NCBI GenBank assembly: GCA_016184105.1
Contig: JACPDI010000008.1
Coordinates: 1-64,000, forward strand
DNA length: 64,000 nucleotides
Origin: Acidobacteriota bacterium
Lineage (GTDB): Bacteria; Acidobacteriota; Vicinamibacteria; Vicinamibacterales; 2-12-FULL-66-21
Direction: 5' to 3'
The notes below the pieces were generated by a model. The model made no database searches. It saw only the letters and a program-made list of their open reading frames with translations, and was not told the origin of the DNA. This document shows, one piece after another, positions 383 to 2,055 of this stretch. Every line of letters begins with the position of its first letter. Within the stretch, counting starts at the first letter, position 1. Both the position numbers and the translations under genes were made by a program.

Positions 383-489
383 ACAGATCAATCCTCGACA
401 GGCCGGTGTGGGGAAGGTCGGGAACAGCGAGAAGCGTGGGAATGCGCTAATCGGCCAAGAGCAGCGGCGCCTACGTGCAGGCCTTGAGG

Positions 490-519
490 TTGACGGAATA
501 CCGATGCCTGGCCGATAAT
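490..519 (+). promoter_or_regulatory. Sigma-70-like promoter upstream of the NYN gene
   Basis: TTGACG at 490-495 and GATAAT at 514-519 are separated by 18 bases. Both boxes are close to consensus in a GC-rich neighbourhood. Initiation would fall near 526, giving an 80-90 base leader before the NYN start codon at 617. That leader contains a strong terminator hairpin, so the promoter may drive a short RNA or an attenuated operon. Sequence resemblance only. Confidence 0.45.
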
Positions 520-566
520 AGTTGCGGTCGTCCCGACTAGTATTCTAAATGGGGTGACCTAGTACA

Positions 567-593
567 GGGCTCCTTCGGGAGCCCTTCGTTTTT
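567..593 (+). terminator. Strong intrinsic terminator in the leader of the NYN gene
   Basis: A perfect 7-bp stem GGGCTCC/GGAGCCC closes a TTCG tetraloop and is followed by TTCGTTTTT. It is the best intrinsic terminator in the window. It ends 23 bases before the NYN start codon, downstream of the promoter-like boxes at 490-519. A second possible hairpin (GGTCGTCCC at 525-533 with GGGGTGACC at 551-559, two G-U pairs) precedes it. It could end the upstream fragment's transcript, define a small RNA of about 70 bases, or act as an attenuator. Confidence 0.75.
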
Positions 594-616
594 CGCCCCA
601 GGTTCAGGAGTTGCTG

Positions 617-1474
617 ATGGATCGGGTTGCCGTCTTCGTGGACGCCGGCTACCTTTTCGCCCAGGGATCGGTGGCTCTTGCGGGTCAAAAGCTCCCTCGC
701 GGTCGCCTCGTACTAGATCACGAAAAGGCAATCGACGCACTCGCCGACTTTGCAGTCCGGGTCAGCGGTGTCGACTTGCTGCGCGTGTACTGGTACGACG
801 GAACGTCAACCGGCCCCAGTTCCCAACACCTCACGTTGGCGCACTTGGCACGCGTGAAGGTCCGTCTCGGCTTCGTCAACAGCGTCGGTGAGCAAAAGGG
901 CGTGGACTCTCTGATCGTCACCGACATGATTGCTTTGGCGCGCAACCACGCGATGAGCGAGGCGGTGCTCTTGTCCGGAGATGAGGATTTGCGCGTCGGA
1001 GTGCAACAGGCGCAGGAGTTCGGCGTCCGTGTGCACCTTCTCGGAATTCGCCCTAGCCGGGGAAGCCAGTCGCTGTTCCTGCTTCAAGAAGCCGATTCGA
1101 CGCACGAATGGAGTCCCGATGATCTGACCCCGTTCCTCTCGTGTAAGCCCGACATTGCCGTGGTATCTGCGGCGCCTCTCCCGGCCGCCGCTCCCGCGCC
1201 GCTGGAACCGATGCTGGTACCCGATCCGCTCAACGACGTTGCTTCCGCCCTCGCGACGGAGATCCCCACGACGGAACTCGAAGCCCTTACCGAGTCGATT
1301 CGTCAATCCGGACAGATCCCAAAAGAGTTCGATGGTCGGCTCTTAGCCGAAGGAGGCCGTGCGCTCAAGGTGCGACTCGATCCCGCGCAGAAGAAAGAGG
1401 CTCGAAACGCGTTTCTCAAAGCGTGTGAGCAGCGCTTGGCCCAAGCACAGCAAACCGCTGGTGGTCCCGACTGA
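617..1474 (+). CDS. NYN-domain (LabA/DUF88-like) putative ribonuclease
   Basis: A 285-residue protein. The N-terminal ~170 residues match the NYN PIN-like nuclease fold: an opening strand with an acidic residue (VAVFVDAGY), a middle motif GVDSLIVTDM and a third motif LLSGDEDL, which together give the acidic metal-binding set of the family. NYN proteins are thought to act on RNA. The C-terminal ~110 residues are Pro/Ala-rich and then helical and charged, with no recognised domain. ATG 617 is chosen because AGGAG lies six bases upstream; earlier TTG and CTG codons fall inside the ribosome site spacing. The HEPN-like gene follows after 47 bases, suggesting one operon. Confidence 0.75.
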   Translation: MDRVAVFVDAGYLFAQGSVALAGQKLPRGRLVLDHEKAIDALADFAVRVSGVDLLRVYWYDGTSTGPSSQHLTLAHLARVKVRLGFVNSVGEQKGVDSLIVTDMIALARNHAMSEAVLLSGDEDLRVGVQQAQEFGVRVHLLGIRPSRGSQSLFLLQEADSTHEWSPDDLTPFLSCKPDIAVVSAAPLPAAAPAPLEPMLVPDPLNDVASALATEIPTTELEALTESIRQSGQIPKEFDGRLLAEGGRALKVRLDPAQKKEARNAFLKACEQRLAQAQQTAGGPD

Positions 1475-1521
1475 GAACGCGATGGCGGTCCAGGCACCGC
1501 CGGGATTAGTCGTGAACCCTG

Positions 1522-2055
1522 ATGCCCCTAAGACTCGATCTCTCCCCATTACTCGAATACCCTGAAGCGTGGCGCCGGCAAGGAAAGGGGTTGCTGTTCT
1601 CATCGGAGGTTCTGTGGTGGCACGCGCAGCACTCGACGCCGGAGGCATTGGCGATGCCGGCAGCGTCACTGTTAGGCGGCTACGCTCTGGAGCACTTGTT
1701 GAAGGGCCTACGGGTGAAGCAACTGCGCGCGGCCGGCGAATCGATCCTTGTCAAGGGTCGGCTCCGACGAGAACTGACGCGACACGATTTGATCACTCTC
1801 GCGGAGGCGGCTGGCGTGCCGTTGGCTCGCCACGAGCGGTTTCTCCTGGAACGACTGACCGTGACCATCACGTGGGGTGGACGATACATTGCTCCCAAAG
1901 ACGTGGGCGAGACGGATTCTCCGACGATGAGTTCGACGGACCAAGAGGCGATTCGGCGATTCGCAGCAAAACTCGAGGACATGCTCGAAGGGAAGGAGCC
2001 GGTGGATTACGACAAGTTGTTGAATGCCACCGACCGTCCGCCACACGATCATTAG
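1522..2055 (+). CDS. HEPN-like protein, possible RNase
   Basis: A 177-residue, mostly helical protein. The stretch GGYALEHLLKGLRVKQL followed by RRELTRHDLITLAEAAGV fits the HEPN four-helix fold: a helix with E..LK and then a histidine-containing helix. An R-x4-H motif (R83 to H88, RELTRH) matches the RX4-6H active-site motif of HEPN ribonucleases. HEPN RNases occur in toxin-antitoxin and phage-defence loci. The partner here would be the upstream NYN protein, itself a nuclease fold, not a nucleotidyltransferase antitoxin. No clear ribosome site precedes ATG 1522. The family assignment rests on motif spacing and is moderate. Confidence 0.5.
   Translation: MPLRLDLSPLLEYPEAWRRQGKGLLFSSEVLWWHAQHSTPEALAMPAASLLGGYALEHLLKGLRVKQLRAAGESILVKGRLRRELTRHDLITLAEAAGVPLARHERFLLERLTVTITWGGRYIAPKDVGETDSPTMSSTDQEAIRRFAAKLEDMLEGKEPVDYDKLLNATDRPPHDH

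Follow-up and report, generated by a model that had tools for sequence, protein, structure and literature searches.

Organization of the locus

The window, a 64,000-nucleotide stretch of an Acidobacteriota genome, starts at the first base of its contig, and the upstream context ends there. The following features were assigned on its forward strand.

490-519, + strand: sigma-70-like promoter, -35 TTGACG (490-495), 18-nt spacer, -10 GATAAT (514-519), 10 of 12 matches
526-595, + strand: conserved structured leader RNA, with its predicted start at the P1 base and its 3' end in the terminator tail
526-559, + strand: hairpin P1, arms GGTCGTCCCG (526-535) and TGGGGTGACC (550-559), 14-nt loop (536-549) starting with ACTAG; compensatory changes among relatives
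560-565, + strand: linker TAGTAC from P1 to P2, its UA present in nearly all relatives
566-595, + strand: intrinsic-terminator-like hairpin P2, AGGGCTCC-TTCG-GGAGCCCT (566-585), with a U-rich tail to about 593-595
606-610, + strand: AGGAG, ribosome-binding-site-like, read directly from the sequence
617-1474, + strand: NYN-domain protein of 285 aa (PF01936), NYN domain at residues 1-174 and helical C-terminal domain at about 204-281
1522-2055, + strand: HEPN-like protein of 177 aa (AF2 fold), judged to be an unrelated neighbour outside the module

A preliminary description of this DNA had reported a promoter-like pair of boxes and a strong terminator 23 bases before the first gene. Both were found again: the hexamers TTGACG and GATAAT with their 18-nt spacing occurred once against 0.4 expected, and the tail of the strong, terminator-like hairpin P2 stops 23 nt before the ATG at 617. 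The covarying hairpin P1, absent from that description, lies between promoter and terminator, and on this ground the leader is regarded as a conserved structured RNA. The earlier idea of an attenuator-like leader with expression by read-through was strongly supported by the sequence comparison, in which the leader appears as the conserved core of the locus. The ACTAG of the P1 loop could pair with CTAGT of the linker in the window to give a possible H-type pseudoknot, the fold of type III antitoxins, and such pairing was not evident in other lineages.

The NYN protein

The acidic nuclease motifs previously noted in the first protein were borne out. The protein matched PF01936 with an E-value of 1.1e-12 (49.1 bits versus a curated cut-off of 24.2), which was its sole Pfam match, and the same family was matched by 10 of 10 relatives. 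The acidic residues of the NYN active site, D9, D97, D103, D122 and D124, were invariant among relatives. When the AF2 model (pLDDT 89.3) was compared with known structures, the NYN domain of MARF1 was the best fold match for residues 1-174 (Z 17.1, rmsd 2.9 over 147 residues). The domain assignment, this fold match and the invariant acidic residues together indicate that the protein is likely an RNase. A CRISPR-associated NYN protein has been reported to cleave RNA in a Mn2+-dependent manner (PMC11346440).

The fold and the conserved acidic residues are shared with NYN ribonucleases such as MARF1 NYN, CRISPR-associated NYN and LabA-like proteins, whereas the cited NYN enzymes are described with neither the helical C-terminal domain nor a linked leader RNA. 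Actinobacterial NYN proteins matched the N-terminal 140-180 residues only and were without the RNA, and the C-terminal domain (204-281) may therefore be the part that recognizes the leader RNA. Searches of PADLOC, PHROGs and NCBIfam yielded no family for the RNA-NYN module except weak NYN-type matches, and a PDB sequence search with the NYN and HEPN-like family profiles gave no match for either. Several chromosomal NYN copies appeared damaged (L024, L067 with an internal stop or frame change, L022, L087). This would fit a gene that is costly to keep; the assemblies are drafts, in which sequencing errors are possible.

Conservation and covariation of the leader RNA

The RNA was present directly upstream of the gene in every full-length NYN relative examined, amounting to about 34 loci from Acidobacteriota, rhizobial and Azospirillum plasmids and IMG/VR contigs. 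The relatives shared the same layout, consisting of a promoter-like region, P1, a short UA-containing linker, GC-rich P2, a tail and the NYN start. P1 ranged from 8 to 12 bp with a loop of 10-17 nt (one longer), and its sequences were unrelated between lineages with the pairing retained. The tail after P2 was T-rich or UACUUU-like; UACUUUC in place of a clean U-tract in many relatives makes the terminator strength uncertain. A -10-like box was located 6-8 nt before P1 in most lineages, with weak promoter matches only in several, and transcription therefore probably starts at the P1 base. The unit was single in all loci examined except one, in Azospirillum thermophilum (L008:5735-5992), where a single NYN gene is preceded by the leader RNA in two tandem copies, both with a terminator hairpin of their own.

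The nearest relative, G297 of the same family, showed 80.7% DNA identity over window positions 483-1463 and was divergent beyond. The block common to both consists of the promoter, the leader RNA and the NYN gene, without the HEPN-like gene. A1 had diverged too far to be used in pattern searches.

Covariation was evaluated in two alignments. In the first, 11 phage-type leaders were aligned with MAFFT from sequence only; 99.6% of the cells could pair and four P1 pairs were changed on both sides, a result reached by none of 500 shuffles and by no slid register. A 23-sequence alignment, which was fitted to the covariance model and is biased toward it, contained both-side changes in 16 of 21 pairs (61 such cells), a level that none of 500 shuffles attained. 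Across 17 lineages, the 50-nt segment before P2 was also more stable than dinucleotide shuffles (Fisher p 1.3e-9), with the exceptions of L060, L024 and the second copy in L008.

Specificity of the association between the RNA and NYN genes

A covariance model, R2, was built without the window sequence. In the 4.24-Mb genome to which the window belongs, positions 516-595 were the only significant match of R2 (E 2.7e-5). Within the order, each of the five genomes retaining the NYN N-terminus had a match on the upstream side of NYN, no more than about 25 nt from its start. Two further matches in the order (L083, L084) had no NYN gene behind them and are probably terminators. In the phylum sample, the three best matches all preceded NYN, and the next one (L087) preceded an apparent remnant of an NYN start, which reads MDRVAVF before the frame is lost. 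The weaker matches were mixed, with NYN behind those in the window, L092 and L094, and most being ordinary terminators; under about 36 bits, most were either ordinary terminators at the ends of genes or had no NYN behind them. The R1 match at L032:6717 was the terminator of a lipoprotein gene.

An exact search of 2.9 million IMG/VR contigs with the phage-type P2 pattern returned 11 matches, all 11 in NYN contigs already known. A DNA search of E. coli genomes for the phage-type unit gave no match. The Rfam search of the leader RNA detected no match at the gathering score or at E up to 1, and nothing was found in the open-access literature linking NYN with an adjacent ncRNA. The leader is apparently an undescribed, strongly covarying RNA family tied to one RNase family in two bacterial phyla and phages. 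That it is a mere terminator of whatever gene lies upstream, standing before NYN by chance, can be ruled out in spite of the resemblance of P2 alone to an ordinary intrinsic terminator and the lower-scoring R2 matches to such terminators, as P1 covaries and is conserved with NYN whatever the upstream gene, and the RNA recurs before NYN in unrelated gene contexts.

The HEPN-like gene downstream of the NYN gene

The structure of the 177-aa protein was predicted as the preliminary description had proposed, and the AF2 model (pLDDT 77.6) resembled HEPN structures. The top rows of VIA-align were all HEPN (1UFB, Z 10.8; 1WOL, 10.8; 2HSB, 10.4), and the best structural rows, with Z of 9.8-10.8, comprised TT1696, ST0689, AF_0298, a HEPN domain protein and sacsin HEPN; Z values below about 13 can be common among helical bundles. 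Foldseek E-values were weak. The protein had no family match in Pfam, PADLOC or NCBIfam, and PF05168 gave weak matches in three of seven relatives. The uniform top structural rows and these PF05168 matches support a HEPN fold in the model. The sequence reading of R83-x4-H88 as the RX4-6H motif of HEPN RNases was not confirmed: H88 is conserved, but R83 is not, and no RX4-6H was found at the usual place, the last helix (138-155) and R121 having no histidine at the required spacing. The residues conserved in the family were E57, K61, H88 and a GRYP-like motif.

PF05168 corresponds to HEPN-T in the 2013 HEPN survey, which describes clustering with restriction-modification operons (PMC3710099). 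The predicted fold, E57/K61, H88 and the GRYP-like motif of the 177-aa protein, as well as the presence of its relatives near restriction-modification genes, resemble this family (TT1696, ST0689, sacsin HEPN), from which the protein differs in having neither a significant Pfam match nor RX4-6H. The relatives were obtained from plasmids, a genome search and a second genome scan; neither the first contig scan of genomes nor two scans of viral sequences with this protein as query found any, and L002 and L005-L007 were judged to be spurious reading frames. Their neighbours varied, including restriction endonuclease and methyltransferase genes (L013), a resolvase (L050) and an apparent type III restriction subunit (L072). 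In L051 (202-2962), the relative lies between TIR/nucleoside-deoxyribosyltransferase-like and nucleotide-cyclase-like genes, a possible signalling-type defence cluster. For L050, L051 and L072, the neighbours were assigned by visual inspection.

The preliminary description had joined the two proteins into one two-nuclease defence or toxin system, and had set beforehand that the proposal would fall if the pair was not conserved together. The genes are adjacent on the same strand, 47 nt apart, with no terminator-like site called between them on the + strand. Among 162 genomes of the order, however, NYN was found in seven and the HEPN-like gene in four, and both only in the genome of the window. 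G297 carries the NYN cassette without the HEPN-like gene, full-length NYN relatives stand alone without such a partner, and no NYN was found beside the HEPN-like relatives in any locus examined. These relatives have other neighbours, and no RX4-6H is conserved among them. The two-nuclease system is thus largely refuted and seems very improbable to us; the HEPN-like gene is a lineage-specific neighbour of the module.

Genomic contexts of the RNA-NYN unit

In the IMG/VR loci, the RNA-NYN unit was located inside tail operons. In L032, it was flanked by the genes for a minor tail protein (phrog_30) on one side and for a tail assembly protein (phrog_32) on the other, with similar arrangements in L034 and L037; it was found between the tail tube and tape measure genes in L028 and beside a baseplate hub gene in L025. 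Third-position GC in the unit (0.49-0.61) was lower than in most of the tail genes around it, as expected of an accessory insert. Housekeeping genes surround NYN in several chromosomes, a placement that would also fit a regulated housekeeping RNase. A RES/Xre toxin-antitoxin pair was observed beside the unit at 6001-8026 of L009 and L010 (Sinorhizobium CCBAU 05631 and NGR234); in Sinorhizobium fredii NGR234, the unit is on pNGR234a.

Three other elements of the window were recorded. Positions 2-382 encode a protein that is interrupted by the contig start, so that its C-terminal part or all of it is present, and whose unnamed relatives (about 31-48% identity) are on plasmids, many of them conjugative or mobilizable. 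An element of about 80 bp just downstream of the HEPN-like gene (2146-2225), perhaps a mobile-element end or attachment site, recurs once in the same genome (C12); elsewhere it occurs three times in G297 and once in G306 (74-84% identical), and one G297 copy lies about 4 kb beyond the NYN unit. Positions 2561-2926 encode a 121-aa protein with a DUF6176 match (E 2.6e-4) below the curated cut-off.

Proposed function of the module

Comparison at the sequence level established a conserved RNA structure, strict linkage to NYN, the order promoter-RNA-terminator-RNase, carriage by prophages and an NYN active site with its residues intact. Beyond this, we infer that transcripts terminate or read through, that the protein is a toxic RNase, that the RNA inhibits it and that the module defends against phages. 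The order of elements is that of type III toxin-antitoxin loci (promoter, RNA, terminator and RNase gene; PMC5086642) and of RCd22-AbiF, in which a short terminated prophage RNA neutralizes a toxin encoded by read-through (PMC12373285). On account of this architecture, a type III-like, RNA-restrained toxin-antitoxin or abortive-infection module is rated the most likely explanation, with a purely cis-regulatory leader second. By analogy with these systems, we are inclined, with some reserve, to accept that the NYN protein would be a toxin to which the RNA binds.

Such a module would have two parts under one promoter, a small structured RNA of about 70-80 nt (P1, linker and P2/terminator) and then the NYN endoribonuclease gene. 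Transcription would end at P2 in most cases, with release of the RNA, while read-through past P2 would yield the RNase mRNA. The excess RNA would, most likely, bind and restrain the RNase, and loss of the RNA supply, for example on transcription shut-off by a phage, would free it. Bacteria, plasmids and prophages would be the carriers.

The leader might instead act only in cis, with P1 and P2 forming a 5' element that NYN or a ligand binds or cuts to set expression of the gene, and the RNA having no separate existence. The position directly before the gene, the fairly constant spacing from P1 to the ATG (about 73-97 nt), the unpaired UA elements conserved in both loop and linker, and the single RNA copy per genome would all agree with this. 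The predicted promoter and terminator bounding a compact RNA, the two tandem units in L008 and the moron-like placement in prophages nevertheless fit a dosage-restrained toxin better, and we regard the cis-acting leader as unlikely, if still a serious alternative. It appears improbable that the nuclease works together with the RNA as its partner, the RNA serving as a scaffold or as a specificity or guide RNA matured by NYN and not as an inhibitor. The strict linkage would suit such a role, as would the ability of NYN enzymes to process RNA (the Bacteroides CRISPR-associated NYN may trim crRNA; PMC11346440), but there is no variable guide-like segment, and the loops are short and conserved within lineages.

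The RNA-restrained module resembles the type III systems ToxIN, CptIN and TenpIN in its single promoter, upstream structured RNA, Rho-independent terminator and downstream endoribonuclease gene, as seen at the sequence level, and in its links to mobile elements and phages. Its toxin, in contrast, would be an NYN protein (PIN-like, with an acidic active site) outside the ToxN/AbiQ, CptN and TenpN families, and its RNA is normally one two-hairpin unit, whereas theirs consist of tandem pseudoknotted repeats; apart from the two units in L008, no tandem repeats were found among the loci examined. As toxin fold and repeat structure differ, we do not place the module in any of the named type III families. 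With RCd22-AbiF of Clostridioides difficile prophages (abiF motif, RF03085), it shares carriage by prophages, the order of elements (a promoter, then a short ncRNA with its terminator, and an RNase-like gene reached by read-through), and the conservation of the RNA beside the gene. The protein there is Abi_2/HEPN-related and here NYN: the leader RNA gave no Rfam match, including to RF03085, and the protein matched only NYN in Pfam, not Abi_2. Experimental neutralization data are published for RCd22-AbiF. The NYN module would be analogous to ToxIN and RCd22-AbiF and unrelated to them in sequence.

We consider it evenly balanced whether these loci represent a new RNA-toxin family, in which an undescribed small RNA is the antitoxin or controlling partner of an NYN-fold ribonuclease in Acidobacteriota, in rhizobial and Azospirillum plasmids and at the accessory sites among prophage tail genes. 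The module is about 1 kb long with a single promoter, which makes toxicity, neutralization and phage protection directly testable in E. coli. If the proposal is true, the RNA-antitoxin strategy has also arisen with a toxin fold that is neither ToxN nor Abi_2, which points to a greater diversity of RNA-restrained toxins than ToxIN, CptIN, TenpIN and AbiF represent.
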